From assembly GCA_964017185.1 (NCBI GenBank), contig OZ024876.1:28612278-28676277 (forward strand): a stretch of 64,000 bases of DNA. Direction: 5' to 3'. Below the pieces are notes generated by a model that saw only the letters and a program-made list of their open reading frames with translations, made no database searches and was not told where the DNA came from. Made by a program: the position numbers and the translations under genes. Source of the DNA: Rugalucina vietnamica (lineage: Eukaryota > Mollusca > Bivalvia > Lucinida > Lucinidae). Of the stretch, positions 9,430-63,396 are shown piece after piece; positions within the stretch are counted from its first letter, which is position 1; each line of letters starts with the position of its first letter.

Positions 9430-9642
9430 TGGGTCGCGACGCGAGAAAACCAGTCTTCGGGGTTTTCGATCAGGTCCAACATGACTCGGACTGTGCAGTC
9501 ACAGAAGGCTAGATACTTGATTTTTCGTATACAAGTAGAAGAGAACTGCACTGGCGAAAACAAATGCGCTTATCAGTCGTGCAACAACTGACCTGCGCCT
9601 TTGTTTTCGCATATGCAGAAATCATATTCATGAAATGGCACA
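9430..9642 (+). mobile_element. MITE family A, diverged copy
   Basis: Recognised by the order of 'cttcggggttt', 'cagtcacagaaggctag', 'gcgaaaacaaa', a degenerate palindrome and 'gcctttgttttcgcatatgc'. Both ends are worn (GGGTCGCGAC instead of GAGCCGCGAC). One of the oldest-looking copies. Confidence 0.75.
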
Positions 9643-9902
9643 AATCATAGGAGAAACATGCAAGATGGACGCACTTCCTTGAAACACAAAGCGGGAGGTT
9701 TAAACAACAAACAACAAATCTGCACACAAAAAAATGTTAAGGTTATATTGTAATAAACATGATAAATGCTACAACTTTGTGTTGTTCTCTTGCTTTTGAG
9801 TAAATCAGTTTCTTGCAGTCATAACATACAGTGCATTTTAAGGGTTCACACATGGTTCACTACAATCAGTGTCACTTTCACATATTGTGCTAAATGAAAT
9901 TT

Positions 9903-10122
9903 GAACCGCCCCATGGGAAAACCAACAATCTGCATATGCGAAAACAAAGACGCAGATCAGCTTCGCGGTAACCGCGAAGCTGATCAGCGCCTTTGTTTTC
10001 GCTACTTCCTCTTCTACTTAATACGAAATTTCAAGCTTCTAGCTCTTTTCTGTGCTTGTACAGGCCGGTTTGTGTCGGACCTGTTCGGAAACCACATTGT
10101 TGGTTTTCCCACGAGGCGGCTC
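9903..10122 (-). mobile_element. MITE family A copy
   Basis: Family A elements run 5' GAGCC..TGRGAAAACC, a body with 'gtccgacacaaaccgg' and 'gcttgaaatttcgg', then a central palindrome flanked by 'cgaaaacaaaggcgctgat' and its complement, then GGTTTTCYCATGANGCGGCTC. This copy is in reverse orientation, with the TTCGCGG/CCGCGAA palindrome type intact. No coding capacity. Confidence 0.9.
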
Positions 10123-10190
10123 AATTATTGTGCTAAATGAAAGTTACTGGATCATACTTGTATGAGCACCCTAAAATGAATCTTGCCTTA

Positions 10191-10804
10191 AGCCCGTCTC
10201 ACACAGAACACACGGTTTACACGGTTGGTCACCCGTGTAAACCGTACATACAACCGAATAAACCGTGGCCTTATCCGACTTGCACTCGGGCCATTCGAGT
10301 GTATCCGTGTAAGCCGTGTATGATTTTTAAAATTTTTAAAAAACTAGCACGGGTGCGATGTCCGTGTATAATCGTATAAGCGATCGTACAAGACCGTGAG
10401 AGACCGTGTGAGCCCGTACGAGACCGTATATACAACCGTACATGAAGCACAAAGCACGAGTAAGCTCAACCGTGTCAAAATCGTATATAAATCGTATGGA
10501 ATCGACCGTATATAAACCCTGTAAACGTCGTGTTTAATCGTACTAGGCCGTAACAGATCGAACTAGACCGTACTTGGAACCGTAAAACAATCGTATGAAA
10601 ATCGTTGGCAAATCGTGTTCAAACCGTGACAAACATTGCTTGATCGAGTATACCCGTGCTTTGATCGTACTCACTCTTGCTACATTCGAGTCTAAATCGT
10701 ACCTCAGGCACGGTTGAAGCTCAATACTCGTACCATTTAATCCGTGTATAACCGAGTAAACCGTATTGGAACCGTGTGCCCAACCGTGTTCTGTGTGAGA
10801 CGGC
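10191..10804. mobile_element. 614-bp element made of CCGT/TCGTA words with inverted ends
   Basis: The ends GCCCGTCTCACACAGAACAC and (complement of right end) GCCGTCTCACACAGAACACG form terminal inverted repeats, and the similarity continues inward as ACACGGTT blocks. The interior carries more than twenty CCGT words and over ten TCGTA words on the same strand, spaced roughly 10-25 bases apart, with little else conserved. It has no credible open frame (the short frame at 10137-10379 just reads through the words). The layout suggests a non-autonomous DNA transposon whose body is an array of protein-binding words. I do not recognise the family, and no clear target duplication is visible. Confidence 0.7.
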
Positions 10805-11274
10805 CATTACGACTAAACAATAGTACCATATTCTACTCTATAGACAATGGTCCAAAACCTTATTCTGCCAAGTTTAATTATAAGAAAACAGGAAGAAAAT
10901 CTACAGACTATTTTGTAGCCCAGAAATCAAAGGGCAAGTAGACATATCAGAACCACTTATAGACAATTTAACCTTTGATCTGTCAAAACGTGACATGTTT
11001 ATCATTTCGTTTCGTAGACGGACATTTTGATTTTATCACCCGTCTACGTTTGCTGTATTCAACAACATTTAACATACATTCGATTGTTTTAATTTCATTT
11101 AATTGGATACCTTTGATATGGAATAGAAAAACCAGCATGAAGCAGACAATTCCGAGAAATGCCGAATGTTTGTGGCGAAAATACTTCTTTCCTCTTCTGG
11201 TGGTGGCGGGAGGTTTAATGAAGACTGACGTTTAATTTCAATCCTTCCCAGAATTCGTTGCGCTTTTAATATTT

Positions 11275-11508
11275 GAGCATGTGCATGAGAAAACCAACAA
11301 TTTGGGTTCCGACCAGGTCCGACACAAACCAGGCTGTACAGTCACACAAGATGGCCAGAGGCTGGAAATTTTGGATTTAGAAAGTAGAGGAATTGTACTA
11401 TCCGTGTAGCGAAAACAAAGGCGCTGATCAGCTTCGCGGTTACCGCGAAGCTGATCTGCGCCTTTGTTTTCGTCCAAGCATTTTGTTGGTTTTCCCATGC
11501 GGCGGCTC
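11275..11508 (+). mobile_element. MITE family A, full-length copy with ATTT duplication
   Basis: Exactly 234 bases between two ATTT (11271-11274 and 11509-11512). The palindrome is the TTCGCGG/CCGCGAA type and perfect. The right inner end is 'catttttg..ttggttttccc'. This is one of the copies that define the element ends. Confidence 0.93.
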
Positions 11509-11514
11509 ATTTGA

Positions 11515-12640
11515 TATTAAGACTTTAGTACAAAAGATTTTATCATTTACAGGCAAAATTTATTTTATCAGTTATAATACCAAACATCTTATATATCATC
11601 AGAGTCGCCAAACTAATTTATGGTGTATATTTTATCACATTAAAATATTTAAATAGTGCCACATGGCTGTGGGGATTATGAAGAAACTTGCATTCATATT
11701 TTTTCTACCCTACAACAGTGTTGCCTCCCAGTTGTTCCACTGTATGAGACTCGTGTGTGCCCTTCTTTCGTATTATAAGGCCTTTCAATACCTATGTGTA
11801 TCTGCATATCACTTAATTTTTGAGCTTTCAAAGAAAAATGTTCCACTTTCACTATGTAAACATCTCCTGTACTGGTGATGTCACTGTGCAAAGACTGGCA
11901 CACTGGTAGAAAGTGGCTAATCAAAATGTCAGATTTTCTGCAACTAGCCAATTCTTTGAACTTTCGTTATCGTTCGATAACCAATGCTCGTGGCATGTCT
12001 GTCAGCAAAACAGACCAATCATAATTAGCCTAACGGTAAACGGTTTGACATTCGGCACGTGTCGGGGTCACGTGACCTTAATTAGAACATGGCCATAACG
12101 GACCTCTCGTGCTATACCGGTGCAAGTTTCAATGCGAAAGGCCAGGAAAGGTCAGGGAATTCTGGCAGTTGCAAGACATTCGATAAAGCTGAAACTGGCA
12201 TTAGATGTATATTTGTATAGAATATACCGCTGTTGATTTAGTATATTGGCAAAGTATCGAAGACCGAATTTGTATCGTTACTGTGGGGCTATGTACCGTT
12301 ATCTTGCCTTATCTTTAGATTGTTTATAGATGCTGTCAAGATAAGTAAATGCCATTCCAACGGACCCGATAGCTAAAAGCACCGAAACTCTCTGCCAGAA
12401 TTATACATAGAGTCGTACCGTGAATACACTGTTTTTGCTATTGCGGCTGCGGGCAAAGCATCATACAAGTCTTCTATGGACATTGTCCATGTTTGTTTCC
12501 CCATTCGAAAGCGATTTTAAATGAAATTAGATTTTATGGTTGATGACTGAGTAACTGACAAGACGATTTTTTTTAAATAATTGCTGGTCAGACAAACACG
12601 GGTGACGGACTCTAGATCATTACTATACTGACATGTATAC
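11515..12640. other. No gene recognised
   Basis: Mixed-composition single-copy sequence. Short frames on both strands overlap and resemble no family. Confidence 0.4.
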
Positions 12641-12642
12641 GC

Positions 12643-13330: not shown

Positions 13331-13366
<36 letters not shown>

Positions 13367-14042: not shown

Positions 14043-14110
14043 ACTGTAACTATGGACATGAATCTATGCATGTTAACCAATCAATGTACTTGGTGTATAC
14101 TTATATATTT

Positions 14111-14344
14111 GAGCCACCTCGTGGGAAACCCAACAATGTGGTTTCCGAACTGGTCTGACACAAATCAGGCTGCACAGTCACAGAAGCAGGCTAGACGCTT
14201 GAAATTTCGGATTTAAGAAGAAGAAGGATTGTACTATATGTTCAGCGAAAACAAAGGCGCTGATCAGCTGTGCAGTTACTGCACAGCTGATCTGCGGCTT
14301 TGTTTTCGTATATGCAAATTGTTGGTTTTCCCATGAGGAGGCTC
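14111..14344 (+). mobile_element. MITE family A, full-length copy with ATTT duplication
   Basis: 234 bases between ATTT at 14107-14110 and 14345-14348. The palindrome is of the second type, TGTGCAG/CTGCACA, with both arms matching each other. Confidence 0.93.
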
Positions 14345-14600
14345 ATTTAGTACTCTACTGGTGATACATCATATGATGGTTAGCGAATCATAAATCTTTT
14401 TAGCAAAAAATCAACAAATAAATATCATGTTATAGTCGAAAATCTTCGTCAACGGGCAACGACGACAGCAAAAGGTGCGAAGAAAAATGTGGTAAACGTC
14501 CGTTTGCGTATGTCGACTATTTTTAGAAGATTTATTAATCTGGTGAAGAGAATGTTCGTCTTTTGAATGTTCTCTCCAGCTATTCTTTGCTATTTTACAA

Positions 14601-15498: not shown

Positions 15499-15832
15499 TA
15501 GACGTTGCACTACAGAAAAGAATACCAACGTGCATGTATACATGATGTTATTTCATAATGACATATGTGATATGTCTTTTCGATAACTTTTCTAGTTCGT
15601 TCTAATTTATCTATTTCACTTTTTCTGGTTGTTTTTGTACAAGCTTTGTGACAGGTAACTCGTGTCAAACCTAACGATTAAAACAGATCATAAATTTCAT
15701 CGTCTTAAAAATCTAGTTTTTTTTTTGTCGAAAGTAAGAATATAAAGTCCATCAATTGATGCCTTTGAAAATTCCCGTTTTTAAAGGACACTACGCGGGT
15801 AAGAGTAGGACGATACTCTAGATATTCCATTT

Positions 15833-16068
15833 GAGCCGCGACGCCCGGAAACCGCACCTCGGGGTTTCCTACCAAGTTCGACATGAACCGGCCTGTACAG
15901 TATCGAGAAAAGGCTAGGAGCTTGAAATTTTGTATTTAGCAAGAGGAGATATTGTACTATACGTGGAGCGAAAACAAAGACGCTGATCAGCTGTGCAGTT
16001 ACTGCACAGCTGATCTGCGCATTTGTTTTCGCATTGGCAAAAATCCGGGCTTCTCGTGACGCGACAAG
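15833..16068 (+). mobile_element. MITE family A copy
   Basis: Carries the alternative 'cctcggggtttcc' left end paired with 'aaaatccgggctt' at the right end. The core is TGTGCAG/CTGCACA. The last bases are worn (GCGACAAGG), so no target duplication can be read. Confidence 0.87.
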
Positions 16069-16618
16069 GTGTTCAGCTCTTTTCCAGCAACGTGGCTATC
16101 CAGTTTTCATCGACAAAAATAAAAATGGCGAGCACAGCAGAGTGGAAGACATAATAAACAAACACTATAGAGACAAATATCAACAGAGCCGCCTTGGAAC
16201 GTAAGGAAATTAATTACTAAAGGACGATGTGCATGTTCGTTTTCAGATTTTTTCCGGGAACAATGACATTCTACAATAACGAGATTTTCCTCGAATATGG
16301 CACTAATATTCTATTAAAATACAGAAGATTCTGATTGGGTTAATGTGCTAAATAATTATAGCCTGACTTAAACGAATTACAATAAGTCCCGAGAGTTTAA
16401 GAAACACAGCTAAAATCATATTATGAAAACAAGAAATCACTTGTAAATAACACCATAAAGTGCCCATCACAGCGAAGATGATTTCATTTACACCTCCTTT
16501 GAAGACTTGACTTATGGAAGTGTTACTCTGTGATTATGCTACTGAAACGAACCCTGGGACGTCCGACCAGATAATGACTTGAAATGGACTTCTGTTCTTC
16601 CTGGGTTTTTATGATGAT
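16069..16618. other. No gene recognised
   Basis: Single-copy-looking sequence. An AAAATGGCGAGC start context at 16123 opens only an eight-codon frame (MASTAEWK, then a stop). Confidence 0.4.
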
Positions 16619-23519: not shown

Positions 23520-24845
23520 GAAGCATCAACATATACAAAAAATGACTTGGGATTTTCTCTTCACGACTCCCCAATAATGGCCAATCGCAAGTCATCCAAC
23601 CGAAAGGTCACAGAAAACAATCCTCTCCATCTATCATAATCCTTTGCAATTCTATCCAAAATGTCGTCTGCAGAATTCCCCTGGAGATGTCTCGCCTATT
23701 AACGTTATTCGCGACATCGCGCGAGGATTGACATCATACTCGGATTACCTTGGCTATTATCGTATAATAACGCCTAAGCTGCTGGCTTTATGGTCCCGAA
23801 GGCCCGAGAAATTTTGAGATCTGTTGAATATTTTACAAGCTTACGCGTTTAGGAGGAGGAAATAGTGGCATCTTGTAAAATAATGCGTATTATGTTCACT
23901 TAAAATGTCATCAATTGTCATTTTACCAGCTAAGATTTCTAATTGAAATAGGATTCCGCGCCTGATTTCGAGAAAAACAAACTCGTTGAACCGTTATTAC
24001 AAGACCTTGATAAATTACAATCTTCAGGATTCTTGAAATCTCGACCGTCTTGGGATTAAGCATGAAAATGACAACTTGTAAGGAAATAAACAAAGAAGGT
24101 TGGCACTATATTTTGTGCGAGGAGCGCGCTACTTAAAATAACCAAGACATTAAAGGATGCTCGCTGCCAACATTCGACATTTTCGACATATGAACTTCCG
24201 GTTTTTATTTTGTTGAATAACTCTAAAACGCGGCTGCAGATATTTTCCTAATATTTTGTATTTGAATACATACAGCTGTATTGTAGGTATACATACAAAC
24301 ATCGGACATATTATGAAAATTATCAGTCACAAGGCTTATGAACTTCATCTTTTTTCACCAAATTTTCTGAAATTTTTTGTTGTCAGTAGAAATTAGGGGG
24401 AGGGGTAAATCAATCTTGAATATAATATAACACAAGTCGTATTAAACGCTCTGATTCAATACTTATTTTAGCACCAGTAGATATGCAATCTGTAGTTTTA
24501 AAAAATGCACACTATCCCTAGTATTTTTGCTTTCAAATGTCTTCTTTTATACGAAGCTAAAAAAGTTGGTAGAAAAAAAGAAAAACCTTTCATTGGCAGA
24601 GAACATCCTTAATAATAATGATAATAATAATATTAATATTAATAATAAGCATCATCATCATCATCATCATCATAATCAAATAAATTTTGCGACCAAAATT
24701 ATTTCTCATTATTCTTTTTGCCCGGACGCAAAAAGTATATCTTCAGATCGTACCAGAGATTTCAAATTATGATTTTGCTTCAACTGAGGAAACTTGACTG
24801 AAATGTTCTGGTACGAACGACGCTAGAACACGCTGAGAATGGTAT
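23520..24845. other. No gene recognised; short (CAT)n near 24650
   Basis: AT-rich. The 81-codon frame at 24527-24772 is driven by AAT and CAT triplet runs and is not a gene. Confidence 0.45.
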
Positions 24846-24847
24846 AT

Positions 24848-24938
24848 GAGCCTTCGTATGAGAAAACCAACAATGTGTGTTTCCGACCAGTTCACCCACA
24901 AACCGGTCTGTACAGTCACAGGAGCTGGCTATCCGTGT

Positions 24939-24980
<42 letters not shown>

Positions 24981-25026
24981 GCTGATCGCATATATGCAGA
25001 TTGATGGTTTCGGGGAACGGGCCGAG
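24848..25026 (+). mobile_element. MITE family A, core replaced by a poly-A run
   Basis: The left end and body ('gtttccgaccagttcacc', 'acagtcacaggagctggct') are present. At 'cgtgtagc' the 'gaaaacaaa' stretch is a ~37-base A run, followed by 'ggcgctgatcgcatatatgc'. Most of the palindrome is missing and the right end is worn. Confidence 0.8.
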
Positions 25027-33101: not shown

Positions 33102-33305
33102 CATCAGGATTGTCCGTGAAATGTTTACCCCCAACCCACTTTTGTATAATTAAACTGGGATTTACAAGGGTTTACCTGTTTTTTTTTTTTTTTTTTTTTT
33201 TTTATTTTTGATCCAAATAATAGATTATGAGTACTCGTCAGAACTGCCTCACCGAGGCGGTTCTGACGTGTACCCACAATCAAGATTTTGAGCAAAAATA
33301 TTAAC

Positions 33306-39760: not shown

Positions 39761-39763
39761 TAG

Positions 39764-40001
39764 GAGTCGCGAGGTGAGAAAGCCGGACTTCGAGGTTTCC
39801 GACCAGGTCCCACACATTGTCACCAGGCTGTACAGTCACAGAAAATAGTTAGCAACTTGAAATTTTGGATTTAAGAAGAAAATGAATTGTATTATCCGTG
39901 AAGCGAAAACAAAGGCAATGATCAGCTGTGCAGTTATTGCACAACAGATCTACGCCTTTGCTTTCGCACAGATAAAGTCCAATTTTCCATGACGCGGCTC
40001 A
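39764..40001 (+). mobile_element. MITE family A, diverged copy
   Basis: Ends GAGTCGCGAGGTGAG and GACGCGGCTCA. The palindrome has decayed (TGTGCAG against TTGCACA, with 'aacagatc'). Confidence 0.85.
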
Positions 40002-40144
40002 CTACGACGTTTGACAGTAAAAACGATAGTGGATCAAGGTAATCATTGATTCTTGTCTTCATCAGCCTTGTTCAGTCTTATTCCAGAAGCTGGTGCATGA
40101 AAGTGGCATGAACTTGATGCTGCGTGCAATCACAATTCAGCCAA

Positions 40145-40619: not shown

Positions 40620-40911
40620 GTATGTAGAAACTTCATCTGAAACCACATAGCCTGAAGGTATTCTAGCTTTCCAATGCCGGGAGTACCACGAGAACCACTG
40701 ATCGAATGTTCCGTTATGTTCTGTTCTCTTTAATTGCTCTAATGAGAATAAGCACATGTAACAGCATATGTCATTTTGATTAATATGTCAATATTTTATT
40801 GATAATTTTATCATTGGAAGTTTCTGCCAATAATAACCTCGCTGATGTATCACCGATTTGCAGCACAATTTTATCTAAGCTGGGTTCTTGGATCATGAGA
40901 ACACCGGAGTT

Positions 40912-40999
40912 TTGACTATGCGAAAACAAAGGCGCAGATCAGCTGTGCAGTAACTGCACAGCTGATCAGCGCCTTTGTTTTCGCTACACGGATAGTCTC
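40912..40999 (-). mobile_element. MITE family A, core only
   Basis: A perfect palindrome of the TGTGCAG type with its 'cgaaaacaaaggcgcagatc' shoulders and the adjacent 'gctacacggatagt'. Both ends are gone. Confidence 0.85.
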
Positions 41000-41515
41000 T
41001 TGTTAAACCCTTCTCGCGTTGAAGTTCATGTGTCCAGCAGGTCCATTCTTGCTCAGCAGTCTCAAGTTGGTTAAGCCCTACATTGAGTCATGTGATTTTT
41101 TTTTGACATCACTGGACCTTTCATTTAAAGATTTTGTGTTAAATGTTGTTTTACGCATTTATTTGAAAACCAACATAACATGCAAATGATGAGGTTACAT
41201 CTAAAGTTATAACAGTGACGTCAATAAGTATTTCCCAAAAGTGATAATCCCCGAACCTGATTTAAGAACGTATCAAAATACAGGCAGGAAATCGTTTTAT
41301 AGAAGATTCACGTAGAAAAACGTTCCGGAGGATCATATTGTGGTCGCTAAACACAGGAAATCGCTAAAGACAGGTGGTCGCTAGGCCGGTCTAGACTGTA
41401 TACTTGACGAAACTCTTGGGATTGTACGCATGTTGGACTCCCACTCGGCACGGTGAAGGTGTTGGAGTCACTGTCCAATTAACTAGGTAAGTCATCAACA
41501 CACGGTACAAGCATC
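41000..41515. other. No gene recognised
   Basis: No supported frame or repeat. Confidence 0.4.
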
Positions 41516-41584: not shown

Positions 41585-42265
41585 GGCAATTTGAATTGTT
41601 GAAGTTGGCAGTGATGATGTCGAACAATCGAAAACCAAGGCCTACGAATAAATGATTATGAATGTGAATGTCTTTTGTGTAAATTTGTTAATAAATTCTT
41701 CAAATACCCATTTCTTACGTTTCTATAAGCCCCGAGACCCAGGATCAAAGCATACCGCCTGATACCTAGCTGCAGCACCACAATACACATCCCCATAAAT
41801 TACCAGCACTTTTTATGATATACATCACTCTAATGCCACAATAATGCCGTGATAATCTTCCCACATCCCCATTTATCCCTTTAACGGTAAATCTTAATCT
41901 CGTCTTGAATGAGAATACAGGGAAAGCACGTGACAATAAACGAGATTTTGATGGATGTTAATCATTACAACGGCTTTCTGAAGTGTCTACGCGCTTATCA
42001 GTAAGTGGAAACGAAGTTTGAAATACATTTTCTTTTCGAGATACGTTTTCTTTGTGGGTTATGATAGAATGTTTGCGCAATCCCCGGATTAAACGGCTTA
42101 TAACGGCGATGATGATAAAGCGGAATCATAATTGACGAGTTTTCCAACGTTTCTCGTGTGTTCTGATTTGCGTTAGCTGCACATAGCGTTTACCGTTTGC
42201 GATTGAAGGTGACCCACATTTGATGCGGCCACATCGTCAAAAGTTGTGAAGGCATCATCCTGCAT
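41585..42265. other. No gene recognised
   Basis: Single-copy-looking sequence without a supported frame. Confidence 0.4.
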
Positions 42266-42267
42266 CT

Positions 42268-42498
42268 GAGCTACGTCGTAAGAAAACAAACAATTTGCAT
42301 ATGCGACTGAAAACAAAGGCGCAGACCAGCTTTGCAGTAGCTGCGAAGATGATCAGCGCCTTTGTTTTCGCTACACGAACTCTCCAGCCTCTAGTCATCT
42401 TCAATGCTTGTACAGCCCGGTTTGTGTCGGACCTGCGAAGCTGATCTGCGCCTTTGTTTTCGAATGGGCAAAAATCCGGTTTTCTCACGATGCGTCTC
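42268..42498. mobile_element. MITE family A, chimeric copy with two palindrome arms of different origin
   Basis: Begins as a reverse copy with palindrome CTTTGCAG/CTGCGAAG. After 'ggtttgtgtcggacct' it switches to 'gcgaagctgatctgcgcctt' and the right end of a forward copy (ACGATGCGTCTC). Both outer ends therefore come from the same element side. Confidence 0.8.
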
Positions 42499-47850: not shown

Positions 47851-48070
47851 ATGGACACTGTTCCTTGCGTAGTCAGCGTTAAATATGTTTTCTCCGTCAG
47901 CTCACAGGAAATTTCTCTAGGGGCTTCAGCCAGGGCTTGGCTATGGTATCTTCACAGTACCTATATTCATAACTTCTGGAATCCATACTGTTCCTAAATA
48001 ATATTCGATATCGGGGATGTGCAACTTAGTGCATCTTATGAGTGAAAATGCTCTTTTAATCAGATAATTT

Positions 48071-48306
48071 GAGCCGCGTCATGAGAAAACCAGCATTTTG
48101 CACATGCCAAAACAAAGTTGGAGATCAGCTTCGCAGTTGAATTGCGAGGCTGATCAGCGCCATTGTTCTCGCTACGCGGATAGTACCATTCCTCTACTTT
48201 CTAAATCCAAAATTTCCAGCCTATAGCCATCTTCTGAGCTTGTACAGCTCGGCTTGTGTCGGACCTGTTCGGAAACCACATTGTTGGTTGTCCCATGATG
48301 CGATTC
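48071..48306 (-). mobile_element. MITE family A copy with ATTT duplication
   Basis: ATTT at 48067-48070 and 48307-48310. The palindrome is damaged at its tip (TTCGCAGTTGAATTGCGAG). The right terminus is GATTC instead of GGCTC. Confidence 0.9.
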
Positions 48307-48309
48307 ATT

Positions 48310-49270
48310 TGTATGAACAATGTTACTGGACAGACTACAGAAGCGTCACATTCCAACGGTATGTTCTGTTTGTTACATACGGTCATTCATTTCCAAAGTA
48401 GGGATTCCAAAATATTTCCTTATTCTAATCCAGTGTATCTTTATTTAATAGCTTTGAAATCTTCATAAGTGTCTACTTGATCCCGTGATGTTTTGGTTTA
48501 GAATTATACGTTTGGCAAATATATCAAAATCGGGAGAGATTTGACCAATGTTTGACCATTGCAGACCAAAGCAAAGTTGTGGGACGTGTTTGAGCTGCGA
48601 AATGTGTAATCCTGCCCGTTGTAGGATTTGTGAGAACAAACTCTCTGAACGGCAAACCTGCAACTGATTACATCGATGCACTTGGTATTGGTTTACCTCT
48701 TTTTACCTCAGCTTTTTACTTGACTCATTTTGATTGAACTCTTTTCCAAAGCCTGTTGCGTTTCTCTTAAGTCTTGTTGTCCCTTTGTGTAAGCCCCGAC
48801 ACGGACACGGCTCATTTTGAAAGACAGCACCTGTGTTTCCCTAGCAGATTATAACATCCAGTCAAAATAGATTTTTCGATTTTTTTTTCTGTTGTGGAAA
48901 TTTTCAGATCAAAACGCTTAACGGGGTAAATTTCGCATATAAGCGTTGCGTCATCATAATATTGCATCGACAGACGACAGAATACCGCGCTCAGTAAGTC
49001 CCAATAAATGAAATGGTCTACATTGGCAATGCATTGGCACCACTGTTACACGTCTTGTAACGATTTAGACTAATTATAAGATCGAACCATAGTTTTGTAT
49101 GCGGAGAAAAATACCTCACATATCAGTGAAACACTTCGACAACGCTTTGGGCAGTTTTATTACGAGTTTTTGATCATTGAAATGACTTGAAAAACTCATC
49201 ATTGGTCCACATATGGCTTCTTCCATCAATGCTCATAACCTCTGTGTTACGCAAATGTTACTGCAATTGC
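48310..49270. other. No gene recognised
   Basis: Mixed-composition single-copy-looking sequence. Confidence 0.4.
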
Positions 49271-49275
49271 GATAT

Positions 49276-49510
49276 GAGCCGCATCATGAGAAAACCGGAT
49301 TTTTGCCTAGGCGAAAACAAAGGCGCAGATCAGCTTCGCGGTAACCGCGAAGCTGATCAGCGCCTTTGTTTTCGCTACTCGGATAGTACAATTCCTCTTC
49401 TTCTTAAACCCGAAATTTCAAGCTTCTAGCCCGTTTCTGTGACTGTACAGGTCGGTTTGTGTCGGACCTGGTCGGAAACCCCGAAGACCGATTTTCTCGC
49501 GTCACGGCTC
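49276..49510 (-). mobile_element. MITE family A, near-intact copy
   Basis: The TTCGCGG/CCGCGAA palindrome is perfect. One end carries 'aaaaccggatttttgcc' and the other 'cccgaagaccgattttctcg', the second terminal subtype. Flanks ATAT and AATT do not match. Confidence 0.92.
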
Positions 49511-49514
49511 AATT

Positions 49515-49904
49515 ATAATGGATGTATTGTTTTTCAATTAATGCGATGAAACTCGACAAAGAAGTGTGACATATTTTCTGCCCGAGGGGACAGCACGTCT
49601 CGGCACGAGAAGAGCGTGTTTTCTGGAGAGGCACTTGTCGGGACCGCAGAAACCAGCACACGAACGCTCCATGGTCGCGGCGACTACAATTTAACAATAA
49701 TTAGGTTGTAATTATGGCGTTTTGAAAGGATGCAAACGCATGCACCTCAAGAGGCCCTACGTGATTTTCTAAAACCAATCAAGGGCCTTTTAATAACTAT
49801 TAAAAAGTTATTTAAACGACTGCGTGAAGGGGGACACTGAATATGTGGTTCAATTTCTTTAAAAATGTAACACACAAATTCAAGTCAAATTTCAACTCCA
49901 ACTG

Positions 49905-50441: not shown

Positions 50442-50466
50442 CAGCTCGTGAGGTACTGATAATAAT

Positions 50467-50698
50467 GAGACAAATATGAAAAACCAACAATGTGGTTTAC
50501 AAACAGGTTTGACACAAACCAAGCTGTATATGCACAGAAGATGGCTAGAGGCTGGAAATTTTGGATTTAGAAAGGAGAGGAATTGTACTATCCGTATAGC
50601 GAAAACAAAGGCGCTAATCAGCTTCGCAGTTACTGCGAATCTGATCTGCGCCTTTGGTTTCGCATATGAAGATTGTTGGTTTTCTCATGATGCGGCTC
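50467..50698 (+). mobile_element. MITE family A copy
   Basis: Left terminus worn (GAGACAAATATG). The palindrome has one unpaired change (CTTCGCAG/CTGCGAAT). The body is unusually close to the copy at 11275, sharing 'aggctggaaattttggattt'. Confidence 0.87.
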
Positions 50699-50769
50699 AA
50701 TTGTTAAGATTTTGCTTTGCGCTTTATTAGATTTTAGTACCTTTGATTTTGACAGGACATATTCCTAGC

Positions 50770-51146: not shown

Positions 51147-51599
51147 AAACATAAAAAAGCATGGATTGACGGGTAAACAACAACCCACCTTGAGTGAGCA
51201 CATTGGGCATAACGCTAAATATGGTACACAGAAACATTGCATTTTTAAAAAAATCTTGCATTTTACATTTTCATTCAGTCAAAATGGAAAATAAATTGTG
51301 GTCGCATGATACAAATCTAAATAAATGACACTTTAATCCAAGTGTCACAAAAACATCCATAATTCCGTGCCTATATGTAATATTTTCTTTAGAATAATTC
51401 TCTTCCGGTTCCAGGGGAAACTATTTTTATCAATATTGGTCAAGTTTTGTCCAAATATTTTTATTCCTTTATCCTTTGAATAAACAATGTATATATCGAA
51501 CCATTTTTTTCAAATGGACAAAGAAAAGAATAAAGGACGATTTGACCGCAATGATTTTTGAAAATCGGTGACATCTTTCTGTTGTGTTTGATCGCATAT

Positions 51600-51830
51600 G
51601 AGCCACAGCATGAAAACAAAGTCTGGGTGTCTGACCTGGTCCGACAAAAACCAGGCTGTATATGCACAGAAAATAGCTAGAAGCTTGAAATTTCAGATTT
51701 GGAAAGAATAAGTATTGTACTATCTATGGAGCGAATACAAAGGCGCTGATCAGCTGTGCAGTAACTGCACAGTTTAGCTGCGCCTTTGTGTTCTCCTATG
51801 CATGTCGTTGGATTTCTTGTGCGGCGGCTC
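51600..51830 (+). mobile_element. MITE family A copy with ATAT duplication
   Basis: ATAT at 51596-51599 and 51831-51834. The palindrome is TGTGCAG/CTGCACA with decay on the distal arm (gtttagctg). Confidence 0.9.
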
Positions 51831-51834
51831 ATAT

Positions 51835-52270
51835 CTACATGGTTGGGAGACAAGATTTAGGTCCCGATAATTCTAAATTGTTGGCTTTTGACAGAGACTT
51901 GATTTTCGACAACTTAATTTGTTTTACAATGCATACTCAGTAGTTCCTAATTTAAGGTCTACGGCCTTATGGTAAGCTCGAGGCTGATTGTCTTTGAACG
52001 AGCTTTCTGTTTAAATCGGTAGGTCATCGTGTACAAAGTACATAATCAGTGTCTGATCAGTTCATTAGATGTATGTATATATTTACAATATAAACATATC
52101 TAAGATAACATATATGTTATACATATTTCCCACTGGGCTAACAAGCTATGTTATATAATTCGCCCATTAGCAGAGAATTAACGGTAATGCTACATGGCTA
52201 GTATTTCATTAAATCACGTGCCTTGGTCAGGCTGTTTGTTTTGGTCTGTTTGTGATGGAAGAACCGTTGT
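51835..52270. other. No gene recognised
   Basis: AT-rich spacer between family A copies. Confidence 0.4.
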
Positions 52271-52272
52271 TT

Positions 52273-52413
52273 GAGCCGCGCGTATGCAAAAACCAAGGCG
52301 CAGATCAGCTTTTAGCCACTTTTCAGCCACTAGCCATCTTCGCTCATTGTACAGCTCGGTTTGTGTCGGACCTGTTCGGAAACCACATTGTTGGTTTTCT
52401 CATGACGCGGCTC
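52273..52413 (-). mobile_element. MITE family A, internally deleted
   Basis: 141 bases. Both termini are present (GAGCCGCGCGTATG, ATGACGCGGCTC), but the palindrome and part of the body are missing after 'ggcgcagatcagctttt'. Confidence 0.85.
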
Positions 52414-52787
52414 ATTTCTTGTCTCGATGTCATATCGAGACATAAGATTCCAGTCTTGTTTTCGCGATGCTTTTACGAAGCCTGCATTTCAATGACGTCA
52501 ATAATTTAGAATATCTGTATACATAACGACAAACATACTTTGCTCAAGTCGAATATTCACTAAACCAATGATGCTGAAATCTACCAGTAAGAGCCTAGGC
52601 AGTTTCAGGCATGCTAAAAGCAATTTTACAGAATGTAGTGAAAAATTAAACCATAATGCACACCTAACGCATTTCCTGCAATGTTTTATATCATTGATAA
52701 TTGCTCTTCAATTTTTCATAACTCGCGTCATATTTTTCGCGGTTTTCTAATAAAAACTAGGAGTTTTCATAATGAACATTGACATAC

Positions 52788-53024
52788 GTGCTGCGTCATG
52801 AGAAATCCAGATTTTTGCCTATGAGAAAACAAAGGAGCAGATCAGCTGTGCAGTAACTGCACAGCTGATCAGCGCCTTTCTTTTCGCTACATAATAGTGT
52901 ATTAATTTTCCTCCTCTACTTATACACAAACTTTCAAGATTCTAGCTTTCTTCTGTGACTGTACAGACTGGCTTATGTCGGACCTGGACGGAACCCCCGA
53001 AGACCGGTTTTCTCGAGTCGCGGC
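52788..53024 (-). mobile_element. MITE family A copy
   Basis: The TGTGCAG palindrome is perfect. The left end is worn (GTGCTGCGTCATGAG). The right part is the 'cccgaagaccggttttctcg' subtype. Confidence 0.88.
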
Positions 53025-53029
53025 TATTA

Positions 53030-54050
53030 CGTAATGAGAACAGCCCCTACCTTCAGGCTAAAACTGATCTAAGGTAATGCCAAACTGACATGGCGCAGGT
53101 CAGACACACTCCAATTTCTGCACAGGCTTGTCTTAATCGAAATGCGTGGATGGTACAATTATACACCTTTTTAAAAGCTTCATCATGACCATCAAACCAG
53201 TGTAATTGATCGGTAAGGCAGAGGGGTTTTGAGCAGAGCGGAGAAACCATGTAGGCTTGTGACATATAGAATGAGGTAACGGACACAAGAACGTGCTCCA
53301 ATAGTAACCAGACTCATCTAGTATTCCTCGTAACGCCCATATCTCACGCTATAAGGTGATTGGTGAAGATATTGGAAATCTTTGGCACCATGTCTTGTAG
53401 TTCTGTCTGCAAGATTCAGAGGCTTGATTAAAATCGATGAAGAAACTGCGTCTTAGATAGCAAACGTTTTATGCTTACGAAACTTTGTCCAGTCACCAAG
53501 ATGTTGGCCAAACACAAACATGATATCAAAAAACTTTCAAAGAAATCTTCTCTGGGACCACCAAATGGCGTCGTAACTGCGGGGTCTTGGGTCAGTCAGT
53601 TTGTTTATATGAGAATTGACCTCAACACATTTAGTTATGGTCACAATGCACTGTGTTTTGGACCAGGGCCGCTTTGTGAAAAAAATAATGTTTGATTAAT
53701 TTTAAAACCTTGTAACAAAATATTCCCAAATAAACAGCCACATGATCACGGTGACGAATGGACTTTCCCATCGTTTTCATTTTAGGTGGATCGAAAGTGA
53801 TTTTCAAATTTTATTATGACTCAAAGCTCTTCCCTCCATAACGTTATTCAAGATGCCATTATGTTTTGGAAAAGTCTTATAGATATGCGTCCGAGGGACA
53901 AAATAGTCCGTTTTTGAAAGACTGTTTATTTGTCGAAATTATTATGTTTGGAAATAACATCATAACCATGTTCATGAAAATCAGTTGTTTAGTCAATTGT
54001 GCCACTTGACAATTTGAATGATATTAAAGTTGTGAATTGAATAGTGAGTT
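53030..54050. other. No gene recognised
   Basis: The 82-codon minus frame 53053-53301 (Cys- and His-bearing) and the 74-codon plus frame 53471-53695 were considered; neither shows a domain or splice context. Confidence 0.35.
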
Positions 54051-54619: not shown

Positions 54620-55110
54620 ACCAAACTTTTTGTTAAAGCTTATACTTGTTGGTCATAATGAGTAAATCGTCCAGCCATTTTAGTTCGCGGTCTTTGGGAG
54701 ACTTATATTTTTCGCCCCCAAATATTTAGATACAGATTGTTGTTTTGCTTTCTGAAGTATAATTACAGAATGCCCAAAACATTATGTTTTAGCTACTTAT
54801 CTGTTTATTCGTGAGAATGATTATACATTATGGTTTGTAGTTGGCTTTATTAATTTGTCCTTTTGTGATAATCTTTATTTTATATTGGTTCGAAACGACT
54901 CGATGCTATGTTTTAGTACAGATTTGCGAATTAGTCGATTTCTATTTTTAAGACGAGGAATCATGCGTTCATATTTATTTTTAGATTATTACGTCACGGT
55001 TATCGATAAAAACCATAACCGGGCCAAATTTTCGGAAAGTACCTAACATATTAGCGGCATCTAGAGTGCATCAATAATATCAATTCCTGGACCTTCTATT
55101 CTAACTTTAC
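54620..55110. other. No gene recognised
   Basis: AT-rich sequence, no supported feature. Confidence 0.4.
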
Positions 55111-55114
55111 ATAT

Positions 55115-55337
55115 GAGCCGCCTCGTGGGAAAACCAACAATGTGGTTTCCGAACAGGTCTGACACAAACTGGGCTGTACAAGCACAGAAGATGGCTAGAG
55201 GCTTGAAATTTCGTTATTAAGTAGAAGAGGGATTGCACTACCCGTGTAGCGAAAACAAAGGCGCTGATCAGCTGTGCAGTTGATCTGCGGCTTTGTTTTC
55301 GCCTATGCAAATTGTTGGTTTTCTCATAAAGTGGCTC
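55115..55337 (+). mobile_element. MITE family A, half-palindrome copy
   Basis: Left flank ATAT and right flank ATAC, one mismatch from a 4-bp duplication. The palindrome has collapsed to a single arm ('gctgtgcagttgatctgcgg'). Confidence 0.88.
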
Positions 55338-55437
55338 ATACATGTTGTCATTATTTCTGAATATTTCAAAGAAATTGTTGGTAAAAGCGGGGGTTTGTGG
55401 TAAAAAGGCTATTTCTGAAGCTCTTCTGAGAGTAATT

Positions 55438-55622
55438 GAGCCTTCGCATGAAAAAAAAAAAAAAAACAAACAAAAACAAAAACAAACAAAAAAAAAAAAA
55501 AAAAAACAAAAAAAAAAAAAAAAAAAAAAAAAAACAATTTGTGCTTCCGACCAGTCCAACACAAACCGGCCTGCACAATCACAGAAGCAGGCTAGAAGCT
55601 TGAAATTTTGAATTTAAGAAGA
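55438..55622 (+). mobile_element. MITE family A, truncated, with expanded A tract
   Basis: The short A tract of the 'gagaaaacc' end has become ~90 bases of A with scattered C (55448-55535). The body resumes at 'caatttgtgcttccgacc' and breaks off at 'aatttaagaag'. No palindrome remains. Confidence 0.78.
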
Positions 55623-55629
55623 ATAATTA

Positions 55630-56310
55630 CTTTTCTATTGTGCTTATGTATATGGGTAAAGGGGTGCGAAACAGAATTACATTATCGTGTTTTAGGAAGA
55701 TACCCATCCCATTTAATAGCATTTCTAATGTTGGGGTGTCCTCATGATATCGCCAGGCACACATTAGAAACATAACTTTGGATATACGTTCCCTAATGAA
55801 GTCGGCATATATTTTAGGGGTACACAATTATGCCAAAACGGTATGCTCACCTACTGGAACAACCAATACAGTGTGTTCGGATACACGTCCTCATGGTATT
55901 GGTACACATTAGGAGGGGGCACATGTGCAGGTAGACAAGAAAAACTGGCACACATTTCATGTTTACGGCATTTATTTGTTTGATAATTTAAATAATAAAT
56001 AAATCTGAAATTTATCATATATTACAAACTTTCATTCATACTGTTATTCACATGTAAACCGAAATAATACATTTATAACGTGAACAACAGATCTTGACAG
56101 ATACATGAAGACAAATACAGAAGTCTGTTAAGTGTATGATAGGTATATTCTGAAGAATGAGACTTTTGTGGAAAGCTGTTTTGTAGAAAGCTGTTATGCG
56201 GAAAGCTGATTTGCTTTATCGAAGTTTTGTGTAAGGATCGAGGTTTTAAGAGATAAAATTGTTTTACAAAATACGTAACTGAAAGCAGCCATATATAAAT
56301 CACAAATACA
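55630..56310. other. No gene recognised
   Basis: AT-rich. Short minus frames near 55627 and 56073 are unassigned. Confidence 0.4.
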
Positions 56311-56313
56311 TAT

Positions 56314-56404
56314 GAGCTGCATCATGAGAAAACAAACATTTTGCATTGCGAAATCAAAGGCGCAGATTAGCATCATTGTAACTGCAGAAGCCTTTGTTTC
56401 ACAA
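56314..56404 (-). mobile_element. MITE family A, one-third fragment
   Basis: GAGCTGCATCATGAGAAAAC, 'gcgaaatcaaaggcgcag' and a decayed palindrome; the body is missing. Confidence 0.75.
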
Positions 56405-57052
56405 AATGATTCTTTACGGTTTCAAACACCAACTGATGTAACTGCAGTGCAATTACAAATAATGAATGAGGCCTTAACATATAGCACGTTAGCACTATTA
56501 AGATTTTGATTCAGACATCACGTGCACACAAGCATACAAATATATACTGTGAAGATATGTATAAACACACTGAAGAATGATTTGTCACGACCGCCGATCT
56601 AACGTCCTTACGAAGGCAAATTGATTGGTGGCCGTGCTCTATATGAAAATGCCATTGTGGTATAAAATGTCCTCGTATCAGACAATTGTCATCTCTATTG
56701 AGCATACATTAAGGATTTTCTCTACATTGCAGACTTCCAAGTATTTTCTCTGCACACAGTTATTCGAGTTGCTATGTTTTCAGCTTGAATTTCTAAAAAT
56801 GTCACAAGGAGATATACCATTTTTAGCAAACAAAGTAAATTATGAAAAAGTATTTTAGGTGTTCAACTTTTCAGCTGTTCAGATATAGATCTAATCCATG
56901 TTTTGCCGTTAAATGTTGTTCAGATTACAAGTCCGCCGTATACGCCAACACTACGCCATTCAAACTGTGAATTGTTTGTGTTAACCGTTGGCAACGCAGG
57001 GCCTTTTGGGTGTGTCCATTCAGTTGTAAGTAGATTGGTCCTAAGCACTATT

Positions 57053-58893: not shown

Positions 58894-58954
58894 CTGAAGA
58901 TAGAAAATGACTTACATTGATTGCATTGTTCGCACAGAAACATGTTTGAAATGT

Positions 58955-59188
58955 GAGCACCCTCGTGGGAAAACCAACAATGTGGTTTCCGAACAGGTCC
59001 GACACAAACCGGCCTGTACAAGAGCAGAAAAGAGCTAGAAGCTTGAAATTTCGGATTTAAGTAGAAGAGGAATTGTACTATCCGAGTAGCGAAAACAAAG
59101 GCGCTGATCAGCTTCGCGGTTACCGCGAAGCTGATCTGCGCCTTTGTTTTCGCATATGCAGATTGTTGGTTTTCCCATGAGGCGGCTC
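58955..59188 (+). mobile_element. MITE family A, full-length, next to the Islet acceptor
   Basis: 234 bases with an ATGT duplication (58951-58954 and 59189-59192). The TTCGCGG palindrome is perfect. Its near end is 61 bases from the Islet exon boundary at 58893, on the intron side. Confidence 0.95.
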
Positions 59189-59349
59189 ATGTATTAAAGT
59201 TTTTAATGCGATAACAGCTTCGCAACTAGGCTGTGCGTCTAATGTCTATTTTTCTTATGTCTTTGTATAACATATATGATTGTTCTATACACTCAGGACA
59301 ATCCCTTGTTGTATAAAAGATAACACATACCTACCTATTCAATATAAAA

Positions 59350-59444: not shown

Positions 59445-60465
59445 GGCCTACTAAGTATTACTGGCGACATGAATGTAAATTTAAAGAATGTAGAGAAATT
59501 ACTAGAGTAAGTCATTCAAAATTCATTTCCATGGAAAATACAACAAAAAGATAGGGTCTGGGGTCAGACTACTACAAAGCTGAAAAGATCTATGCTTGGA
59601 GATCCTCTCCACTTTAGCTCCAGGCCAGTGTTCAGCCTTCATGATGAAAACCACAACGACATACACAAGAATGAGACGTCTAGCTATTACAAGCGCGGAA
59701 GTTGTTTCTATTTCAACTTTACAAGGAAATATACAATTTGCACCATTGGTTTGGCCTTATGACAAAACTTTGGGATTTTTCGCACTTTATTACAGAAAAT
59801 ATGATTTATTCTTATTCAAGTATTTTTCTCGACAAAATATTTGGGTGTTTTTATCTGTTCTGCGAAGTTAGGTCGTGAACGCACAAAACGACCAGACTTA
59901 ATTAGTATGTACTGTCAGGCAAACATAATAGAAATAATTTTATATTTTAACGTACAAAAAATACCATTGTTCTAAAATATGGGTGCCAAGACTTAAATTG
60001 TATAAGACAATAAAGTAAAAAATAAATATTATCATAAAAAAATCATCTTCTTAAGATTATCTTTGTTAATCAAGAGGCGTGTTTCGTTGATGCCATAGAG
60101 AAAAAAATAGTTCCTGTTTTCTGCGGAATTCTACAAATGTAACGCACAACAGTGTGAAAATACTTACAAATATTAAAACCTATATTTTGCACGGCATGAT
60201 ATGAGGTCTGTCTGCGCGTAATTAGAACATTAAACCATAAAAAAAACCCATACAGGAATGAAATAACATATCAACACTATTATGAACAGTCTGACAGGAA
60301 ACGGTTTGGAGTTAAATTAGTAATACTCAAAATAAAAAAAAATATAATTTAGCTCGAATTTAAAACAGATCCATCATTTTTAGCTGCTGAGGGTGCAGAG
60401 CCTTTTATCAGTAGTAACATGGTTCTGAGTGATAATATCAAAATTATGATTTATGATGGTACATA
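59445..60465. other. No gene recognised
   Basis: AT-rich intron sequence. The 91-codon plus frame 59596-59871 is unassigned and antisense to Islet. Confidence 0.4.
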
Positions 60466-60469
60466 GTTT

Positions 60470-60703
60470 GAGCCGCCGTGCGATAAAACCGGTCTTCGGA
60501 GTTTCCGACCAGGTCCGGTACAAAACGGTCTGTACTGTCACAGAAGGAGGCTAGAATCTTGGAATTTTTAGTATAAGTAGAGGAGGAATTGTACTATCCG
60601 TGTAGCGAAAACAAAGGCGCTAACAGCTGTGCACTTGCTGCACAGCTGAACTGCGCCTTTGTTTTCGCATAAGCAAAATTCCGGTTTTCTCATGATGCGA
60701 CTC
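60470..60703 (+). mobile_element. MITE family A, full length
   Basis: 234 bases. Flanks GTTT and ATTT differ at one base. The palindrome is the TGTGCA type with an altered tip (gtgcacttgctgcac). The 'gtcttcggagtttccgacc' left end pairs with 'aaaattccggttttc' at the right. Confidence 0.92.
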
Positions 60704-60704
60704 A

Positions 60705-61140
60705 TTTTAAGCAGCTGCATGAAGGAAGATTCCTCTGTGCGCTAGAAAGCAAGTCACCGTTAGATCAGATGCATTGCTGATCATTGTATTGCTGTTCCCT
60801 ACATTGATAGTCAATCTGTACAACTGAGTGCTTCAAGCATCAGCAAGCTCAAGAAGCCGTGATGACTGTTTTTTGTTTTTTTGTGATACTGGTATGAAAC
60901 TCCGAAGACATAGTCACGCCAAGGAGTCACAATTGCTGACAGAACATGTGGAGTCAAATATTGCATAATGATAAGAGTACGCTGCAAGACATTTCTGTTT
61001 TACGTTATCTTGTATTCTAAAACCACCAACGTTTAAGGTTCTAAGGGTACCATAGAGTAAGAGTGGTTTCCTTATAAGACTTGGTCAAAACTCAATTTAA
61101 GAACTGCATTGAAAATGTGATAGCATAGCACAACCACACA
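60705..61140. other. No gene recognised
   Basis: Intron sequence between MITEs, no supported feature. Confidence 0.4.
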
Positions 61141-61144
61141 GTCT

Positions 61145-61751: not shown

Positions 61752-61754
61752 TAT

Positions 61755-62814
61755 TTGAGTGCGTGCAAGTAGCAAACGTCAGGATTTACTGGGGAAACAT
61801 ACCATGCAGACACCATTTTTTTTCGAGTATATTCTATGAAAATTGGTATTTGAGGCTCATTTCTTCTAGAATATTTTGCCTTACAAATCAATGAACAGAT
61901 CATCTAACAGATATTGAAAACACAATCAAACACTAAGCTTCGTGTTTATCATTTCAAAACGTTTATCGTTTCCATCATCTATGCAATTAAACGCAGACTC
62001 TCAGTTGCCATGCGCCATTTTGTCTGGTCGGGTGTTACAAATAACAGACCTGCATAATTTAACGGAAAGAATAAAGCATATTTATACATTTTATTCAAAA
62101 TAAAATTTTTCGAAAAGCAAGTATAGTTGTTTAAAAAGTTAAGCGCATTCTCAGTTAAAACTCGCTTGAACGTGTGATCTTAGTCATGTTAAGGTTGGAC
62201 ACTGTTTTGATATCAAATGCTACCACTGGACAAAAAAAAAAACAACAACAAAAAACAAAAACAAACAAACAAAAACAAACAAACAAAAAATAATAAAGAA
62301 AGAAAAAGAAATAAACCTGTAAATGGTCCAATGAGGCTCAATTATACATCATCTGAAAAGCTGTTTAAACAAAGATTTATTTGAAGTTCGAAATAAGCTG
62401 TAATTCCTCAGATTTTCATGTTAAAGTTTCGATTTTTCATCGACCGACGACAGGAAATAAAGACAGAAACAAGATTGCGAAGATCCAGTGAAGCGGTTTT
62501 CGATTTCGTTTCGCTGGATAAATTGTTCCTGGATTTTTAACAATCCGTAATCCGCTCAAATTACTCGTACAGACATAATTGGTCTAATACGGTAGAAAAT
62601 TGGGGATCAATTTTACGAGTGACTAGATAGCTCTGTAACTTGGTATCTTCAAAGGCAGAGTTCCTATGTGTCCGGACAGAATCACGGTATGGTTCACTAT
62701 CTCCAGAGAAAGACGGATGACAGAATATCGTACATGTAAAGTGCCTCTGAATTTGACGTCACCGTTAGTAAAGTAAGTAAGTCAACGATTGACGATTTGG
62801 TTATATCCTCGTTC

Positions 62815-62846
<32 letters not shown>

Positions 62847-62934
62847 CCGCAATGTGTTACGGGTGAAATCAAGCAAAGGACATCATTATCATTATGAAAA
62901 CACGCCAATGAGATATGGTTTACAGATTTCTTCA
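61755..62934. other. No gene recognised; A-rich 62231-62310 and (GA)n 62816-62845
   Basis: Intron sequence with two simple-sequence tracts. Confidence 0.45.
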
Positions 62935-62937
62935 GCT

Positions 62938-63096
62938 TCAGTTGAAAAATTTTGATACTTTTGATACTTGCTCAAAAACTGATTGTGGTGAGGCGTTACT
63001 AGCGATTACCCACAATCTGTTTTGGAATAGAAATGATTAAAAATGTGTATACATGTACTGTTTACATGTATTTCACGGACATGTTTTCTTGATTGT
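62938..63096 (-). mobile_element. MITE family B, degraded copy
   Basis: 'gctcaaaaactgattgtgg', 'gattacccacaatctgtttt' and the end 'cacggacatgttttcttgat'. The palindrome is much reduced. Confidence 0.65.
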
Positions 63097-63162
63097 AGGG
63101 TGGCTAGTCTATGTGAGCAGTACAAAACAGTGTTCGATTTCATCAGGATAAAATGCCCATAT

Positions 63163-63396
63163 GAGCCTCGACGCGAGAAAACCGGTCTTCGGGGTTTCCG
63201 ACCAGGTCCGACACAAACCGGCCTGTACAAGCTCAGAAAAGAGTAGAAGCTTGAAATTTCGGATTTAAGTAGAAGAGGAATTGTACTATCCGAGTAGCGA
63301 AAACAAAGGCGCTGATCAGCTTCGCGGTTACCGCGAAGCTGATCTGCGCCTTTGTTTTCGCCTAGGCAAAAATCCGGTTTTCTCACGATGCGGCTC
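63163..63396 (+). mobile_element. MITE family A, full length with ATAT duplication
   Basis: 234 bases; ATAT at 63159-63162 and 63397-63400. Perfect TTCGCGG palindrome, with the 'gtcttcggggtttccgacc' left end paired to 'aaaaatccggttttctc'. Confidence 0.95.

Follow-up and report, generated by a model that had tools for sequence, protein, structure and literature searches.

Two-sided core alleles in a palindromic MITE family of the bivalve Rugalucina vietnamica and their possible origin by template switching

INTRODUCTION

Miniature inverted-repeat transposable elements (MITEs) with terminal inverted repeats are short and occur in very many copies. An element of this kind is repeated along a 64-kb stretch (38% GC; hereafter the window) of the 1.09-Gb genome of the lucinid bivalve Rugalucina vietnamica (assembly GCA_964017185.1, contig OZ024876.1, positions 28,612,278 to 28,676,277, forward strand). 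It resembles MITEs in general in being short, in its terminal inverted repeats and in its very high copy number, and differs from them in that a separate, near-perfect palindrome lies inside it. The core of this palindrome exists in three forms that differ in both arms at once, while the individual copies change one arm at a time.

Three described systems are close to what is seen here. In terms of target duplications alone, the family can be likened to the Sola2-type DNA transposons, for which PMC3627910 gives 4-bp AT-rich duplications such as ATAT, AAAT and ATTT; one clean duplication of the present family is, in turn, ATGT. With regard to the palindrome, PMC8794818 and PMC3820800 describe template switching at quasi-palindromes, in which an imperfect inverted repeat gains more similar arms through reverse-complement copying and, in some cases, has its loop inverted. 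In the former, template-switch mutation is described for RNA stems, and a compensatory change together with loop inversion is regarded as the strongest possible support. These descriptions concern RNA genes and yeast reversion assays, whereas the present case is one transposon palindrome with 82,660 matches, whose built-in T.T mismatch can report arm-copying events. Finally, as in the compensatory covariation of structural RNA, both members of a pair differ between alleles and pairing is retained; unlike in structural RNA, the events are few and lie at the founder level, no compensation was found in resident copies, and a mismatch is nearly fixed within the stem. No paper on this family was found in the literature searched on MITE covariation, Sola elements, conversion between arms, quasi-palindromes and template switching in MITEs, and a full-text search with core oligomers and peptides gave no match.

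RESULTS

A MITE family with an internal palindrome

The window holds 21 aligned copies or remnants of the element in both orientations, besides weaker remnants which were dropped before any counts were made. The element is about 234 bp long (234 bp between GAGCC and GGCTC in the copy at 63153), and its termini, GAGCCGC...GCGGCTC, form terminal inverted repeats. Perfect 4-bp flank duplications were found by eye in 6 of 19 flank pairs (ATGT, ATAT, ATTT, ATTT, AAAT and ATAT), the other 13 being imperfect, decayed or truncated; where intact, the target duplications are mostly AT-rich. Inside the element, at positions 135-199 of 234 in the 63153 copy, lies a palindrome of 65 nt. It has 31 complementary pairs around a centre of one base, and a T.T mismatch is built into the stem at 17/49. 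A pattern of this stem in which the 17-nt core was left free has at least 82,660 matches genome-wide (41,432 forward and 41,228 reverse), against none for the control. The element is short, leaves no room for a transposase, and has terminal inverted repeats, a target-site duplication and a high copy number; it is thus a MITE. Five of the six perfect duplications fit the AWWT rule of Sola2, the sixth being ATGT, and a placement in this superfamily is only a lead, drawn from the target duplications.

Sequence searches gave no match of the MITE in viral contigs or phages. Two matches of 21 nt in bacterial genome bins do not continue into the rest of the element and appear fortuitous. A scan of the window against Rfam at gathering thresholds gave no match within the listed elements.

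Three symmetrical core types

The initial annotation, made from the letters of the window, had proposed two core types that differ in three base pairs with both arms changed each time. This claim is borne out by the window palindromes (17 of the 21 copies, remnants without both arms being left out) as well as by genome-wide counts. The sequences CTTCGCGGT/ACCGCGAAG are found exactly in both arms of five window copies (10 matches, against 0.13 expected), and so are CTGTGCAGT/ACTGCACAG in five. At pair 26/40, the 17 palindromes have T:A in eight, G:C in eight and a gap in one; at pair 27/39, T:A in eight, C:G in seven, C.A in one and a gap in one; and at pair 30/36, A:T in ten and G:C in five, with two gapped. 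Both proposed types are real, but a third had been overlooked. Type I (TTCGCGGT/ACCGCGAA), type II (TGTGCAGT/ACTGCACA) and the intermediate (TTCGCAGT/ACTGCGAA) are each symmetrical, and the intermediate has pair 30 as in type II and pairs 26-27 as in type I. By our reading of the alignment, the third core, CTTCGCAGT/ACTGCGAAG, underlies the three window copies at 48067, 50457 and 42264.

Genome-wide, with the rest of the core held fixed, pair 30/36 is G:C in 29,004 matches, A:T in 16,981, A.C in 891 and G.T in 895, so that the two-sidedness is neither chance nor an artefact of a small window. Among the stem matches listed, 100 genomic cores (contig C1, 0.30-2.85 Mb, forward strand, a local and not a random sample of the genome) were assigned to the nearest type, giving 64 of type I, 24 intermediate and 12 of type II. 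Mean pairwise divergence, taken by core and end type, is.06-.10 for type I,.12-.18 for the intermediate and.21-.24 for type II, which therefore looks oldest. As RNA, the three have similar predicted folds (-53.2 to -54.7 kcal/mol, z -11.8 to -13.2). They behave as founder alleles that are weakly linked to the element ends.

Resident copies decay one arm at a time

When the 100 listed cores were compared with their nearest type, 50 one-arm changes and no compensatory change were counted; the only changed pair altered on both sides, among 51 in total, was T.T and not complementary, although this measure misses any double change that equals another core type. Recurring compensatory changes among resident copies, by which a structural RNA is recognized, are therefore absent from the 51 changed pairs of these cores. 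One-arm changes are seen at most pairs of the window palindromes. The T.T mismatch stands in the stem of 17/17 window copies and of 69 of the 73 palindromes examined overall, 28 of which were drawn from loci chosen by core pattern. In 18 of the 73, pair 13/53 is G.T, a one-sided change that has spread at the founder level, and recurrent CpG decay may explain the right-arm G>A that 9 of 60 full-length copies have at position 52. Given the near-fixed T.T and the common one-arm G.T, resident copies do not maintain their pairing, and conversion between arms is not very active.

These results bear on the two explanations offered in the initial annotation, namely that the folded molecule matters or that gene conversion between the arms is very active. 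Pairing has been retained in the core between types, and at the ends only partly (see below), but it is not maintained within copies, and, for changes that followed insertion, single-arm changes outnumber compensatory ones by 50 to 0 in the listed cores. Very active conversion is hard to bring together with the T.T of 69/73 palindromes and with private one-arm changes that are not mirrored.

Left-arm G28>A on a type-I background has 680 matches; of the first 100 listed, 4 have the corresponding change in the right arm too, where about 2.2% would be expected from right-arm decay at the left-arm rate (P = 0.18). At pair 30, the hybrids A.C and G.T make up 3.7% of the exact cores (1,786 of 47,771), each reaching about 3% of type I, a level close to that of ordinary decay at pair 28 (2.2%). 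Of the scenario in which arms are merely swapped between two fixed sources, what stands in part is the exchange of the core as a whole, which is weakly tied to the ends; an exchange of single arms is not seen, the hybrids lying near the decay level.

The changes shared among copies are unevenly placed. A second base in at least 3 of the 17 window copies is found at 6/17 core sites (the three pairs), at 0/48 sites of the outer stem and at 23/84 of the middle region; two-copy variants number 1 and 5 in the two arms of the outer stem, and private changes per cell are.027 and.044 in these arms and.046 in the middle. In a shuffle test on 52 aligned palindromes (34 distinct; the 21 of 73 with gaps or insertions were left out), two-sided cells numbered 34 against a shuffled mean of 12.1, a value that none of 500 shuffles reached, while pairs with a two-sided change numbered 7 against 4.7, which 32/500 shuffles reached; this control ignores relatedness.

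Ends agree with each other and only weakly with the core

For the analysis of the ends, the 13 of 73 palindrome-bearing copies with at least 30 gapped columns were left out, which leaves the 60 full-length copies. Of the 52 copies that could be typed at both ends, 50 have the same type left and right, as do 53 of 55 under a looser typing of all 73; the exceptions are L042 and L022. The claim that the outer arms behave like the core is correct as far as the types co-occur on the left and right. It does not extend to pairing in full: N-type ends (AACCAACAAT) pair over 10 bp, whereas GG-type ends (left AACCGGTCTTCGGGG; right, as reverse complement, AACCGGATTTTTGCC) pair contiguously only over AACCGG. 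Since the pairing of GG ends stops there, the ends repeat the core's retention of pairing only in part. Between the two end types, positions 22-23 changed from AA to GG on both sides and are paired, and the outer 21 end positions have five differences, one two-sided and paired, one two-sided and unpaired, and three one-sided. Because the end-pairing model lacks a column in the left end of the GG type, the matches it shows at positions 25-26 are out of true register.

The ends, although about 200 bp apart, are strongly associated with each other (V = 0.91), in contrast to left end and core (0.35) or right end and core (0.48; n = 49). Across the 60 copies, mean r2 is 0.54 between the left and right subterminal regions and 0.22 between the outer repeats, against 0.07-0.10 for ends and core, 0.03-0.08 for ends and middle, and 0.05-0.06 for core and middle. 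When mapped on a tree of the ends (n = 52), core type requires 18 changes (shuffled mean 19.8) and left-end type one (15.4). On a tree of the middle region of 52 copies, core type requires 14 changes (19.6 shuffled, below all 100 shuffles) and left-end type eight (15.3), so that the middle is partly tied to both core and ends. The 63153 copy (ends G/G, core I) differs in its middle by 1-2% from copies with other ends or another core, and the 11266 copy has the intermediate core in three of its four nearest copies by middle region, though its own core is type I. Considering the weak linkage of core and ends despite the strong linkage of the ends, elements that differ in their ends appear to have exchanged the core, either by itself or together with part of the middle. 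We infer that recombination caused this reassortment. Interior gene conversion would account for it, and poor transposition of elements with unequal ends would likewise leave the ends concordant.

Pair restoration at the T.T mismatch is associated with inversion of the centre

A base other than T at one or the other position of the mismatch is found in 3,388 and 4,085 rows, and the first 100 listed of each were inspected by eye. Copies with T:A or A:T usually match on both strands and were counted once; A thus accounts for 74 rows (40 places) in the former set and 70 rows (39 places) in the latter, with C in 19 and 22 and G in 7 and 8, respectively. Three pair-restored places of the former set were dropped, as their centre is not the family core. 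From the listed rows, 76 core-like T:A or A:T copies on contig C1 (again a local and not a random sample) were retrieved, of which 18 have altered flanks (some of them may be mere divergence) and 58 are simple, 56 of the latter being oriented. Among the simple copies of type I or intermediate core, the centre base is A in 8/31, against 1/88 T.T cores (Fisher 7e-5), and among those of type II in 8/25, against 1/12; the T.T controls were counted by eye in the 100 listed cores. In rows of the T.C or T.G kind among those listed, the centre is A in 4/56 (by eye, altered flanks not filtered). Simple T>A changes are also in excess over C plus G when compared with positions outside the palindrome (58:56 versus 26:67, P = 0.001).

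In two copies, several mismatches may have been converted jointly: L059 has T:A, an inverted centre, and A:T at 13/53, the usual G.T pair, and L070 has T:A together with a mirrored private change at pair 27/39. Insertions in the left arm are present in 5 of the 18 copies with altered flanks (L052, L066, L051, L106 and L121), and that of L052 matches the reverse complement of its right arm, including a base private to that arm. Extrapolating from the listed rows, there would be about 1,000 simple T:A and 1,100 simple A:T copies against the 82,660 T.T matches, so the rate of switching is low.

Seven palindromes (L054, L057, L073, L101, L104, L116 and L125) have a partial duplication of an arm beside the mismatch, suggesting further rearrangement at the palindrome.

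Origin of the core alleles

We infer that the two-sided changes arose by template switching in a few founder elements, followed by spread, shuffling of core and ends, and one-arm decay, an account to which we assign a probability of roughly 0.55. It would require at least two steps, one at pair 30 alone and one at pairs 26 and 27. In each, a mutation in one arm of a founder would have been copied to the other when the strand folded back during DNA synthesis; the resulting symmetrical alleles would have been multiplied by transposition, cores and ends would have been partly reassorted by recombination or gene conversion between elements, and each resident copy would later have decayed a single arm at a time.

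Several observations weigh against this account. The founder events are few (two or three) and their mechanism is not directly readable from the present genome, and one-sided changes have spread among founders as well (T.T at 17/49 and G.T at 13/53). There is also a partial link between core type and the middle region (14 changes versus 19.6 shuffled). As to the footprints, the enrichment of centre A falls short of significance in type II. Centre A also occurs in three T.T copies whose core is of type II or ambiguous, so that it seems to be polymorphic in this old subfamily, and sublineages may account for some of the T:A or A:T copies. Measured against T>C alone, T>A is not in significant excess at the mismatch (P = 0.07), and mirrored private changes are nearly absent from pair-restored copies (L070 only). 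A templated origin of all five left-arm insertions was considered and rejected, as those of L051, L106 and L121 can equally be a 5-nt GATCA tandem duplication and that of L066 is ambiguous. Moreover, a compensatory change accompanied by loop inversion was found to be extremely rare among RNA genes in PMC8794818.

Selection on the founders could instead have kept the hairpin, either as a transcript, for instance a small-RNA precursor, or as extruded DNA that transposition requires, with residents free to decay. This is unlikely in our view, yet it has evidence on its side: the outer stem of the 17 window copies has no shared change at 48 sites although private changes accumulate there, the three alleles are predicted to fold alike as RNA, the two-sided cells far exceed those of the shuffled palindromes (in a control blind to relatedness), and the one-arm founder change G.T would still pair as G.U. 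However, conservation of the stem can also stem from its base sequence, pairs with a two-sided change are not unusual in number, T.T is near-fixed, and one-arm changes have spread at right-arm positions 53 and 52. A rather less likely alternative is that the palindrome is a two-fold site for a putative homodimeric protein, transposase or host factor, whose half-sites change jointly with no need of folding. The confinement of shared changes to the inner eight pairs, symmetrical about a one-base spacer, would suit such a site, and the stem farther out could then be asymmetric, as in T.T; but half-sites do not predict that the spacer is inverted together with the restoration of a pair. Hairpin or two-fold-site selection in founders is a possible explanation of the invariant outer stem as well, and the near-fixed T.T and the spread of one-arm changes limit how strict it can have been.

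That the alleles were imported ready-made by recombination from related palindromic MITE families, with no double substitution within this one, appears very improbable. Core and ends are weakly linked, as import would have it, and the change from TC to GT spans two adjacent pairs with no clean intermediate among the 100 listed cores; nevertheless, all three alleles have the same outer stem, the T.T and mostly a T centre, so that a donor would have been nearly identical, the intermediate differs from type I at a single pair, and the donor would need the same explanation. Hardest to credit is very active conversion between arms that homogenizes the copies, as the initial annotation had suggested. 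Footprints of arm-to-arm copying do exist in resident copies, but this strong form is contradicted by the counts at the mismatch, where T.T so far outnumbers the simple T:A and A:T copies extrapolated from the listed rows, as well as by private one-arm changes that were not mirrored; in a weak form, conversion is part of the template-switching account.

Copies and other features of the window

Five copies in the window are full elements of core type I: those at 58945..59192 (+; ends N/N; palindrome 59089-59153; ATGT on both flanks), 63153..63400 (+; G/G; 63297-63361; ATAT on both), 49267..49519 (-; G/G; 49311-49375), 11266..11512 (+; N/N; 11409-11473; ATTT on both) and 9899..10131 (-; N/N; 9938-10002). 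The last has a direct repeat of about 16 nt (TTCATTTAGCACAATA) on both sides, offset from the right end, which exceeds the 4-bp duplications of the other copies. Core type II is carried by full elements at 14102..14348 (+; N/N; palindrome 14245-14309; ATTT on both flanks), 15824..16071 (+; G/G; 15968-16032), 52784..53035 (-; G/G; 52823-52887) and 51591..51834 (+; centre base A; 51731-51795; ATAT on both), and in exact form by the right half of an element at 40886..41030 (-; 40920-40984). Type II with one-arm changes is found in a full element at 60461..60707 (+; G/G; palindrome at about 60605-60668) and in an element with left end G at 39755..40004 (+; 39903-39967).

The intermediate core, with private one-arm changes in each case, is present at 50457..50702 (+; ends N/N; palindrome 50599-50663), in a full element at 48067..48315 (-; 2-nt loop insertion; AAAT on both flanks) and in a truncated one at 42264..42437 (-; about 42309-42371). 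The core is partly deleted in a full element with ends N/N and a left core arm of type II (55106..55341, +) and in a decayed one with left end G (9420..9645, +). The rest are remnants: one with N-like ends whose palindrome is largely replaced by an A run (24839..25015, +), one with left end N and a mostly deleted palindrome (52258..52422, -), a right end with a degenerate palindrome (56308..56418, -) and a left and middle part adjoining an A-rich run (55519..55658, +). At 24839-25015 and 55350-55540, A-rich stretches of remnants have turned into long A or A/C runs, one of them at the place of the palindrome.

Another palindromic MITE family, whose arms are about 55 nt long, occurs at 15289-15427, 50233-50370, 35538-35675, 57756-57893, 34641-34750, 33197-33304, 61556-61675 and 13879-13987. 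Several of its copies have a built-in A.A mismatch (left TACACG, right CGAGTA), at the place of which the 15289 copy has T:A, and the family is possibly a further recorder of arm-to-arm copying. A tandem array at 8379-9075 (37-bp unit, 18.8 copies) has in its unit a GTTGGT-like stretch resembling the N-type element end, and a further array lies at 29168-30222 (156-bp unit, 6.8 copies). The only Rfam match, SECIS_1 at 27551-27618 (37.4 bits versus a gathering score of 35), adjoins a 234-bp tandem duplication at 27640-28102. The window also contains reverse transcriptase frames of the LINE type, and no tRNA was found in it with ARAGORN.

IMPLICATIONS

Covariation is usually taken as strong evidence of a functional fold. 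In the present MITE, the differences between types are cleanly two-sided, yet no compensation is seen in individual copies once many of them are examined. The differences between types look like a small number of founder events, which template switching may have produced in a single step. We tentatively propose, at somewhat less than even odds, that the palindrome is a natural genome-wide recorder of template switching, by virtue of its 82,660 stem matches, its T.T mismatch and its asymmetric spacer base. If so, a switch would be recognizable from T:A or A:T in place of T.T, most of all where the centre is inverted as well, and the approximately 2,100 simple pair-restored copies extrapolated here, some of which are surely plain point mutations, would suffice to map the rates of switching against age and position. 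It would also mean that selection on structure is not required for covariation to arise in repeats.

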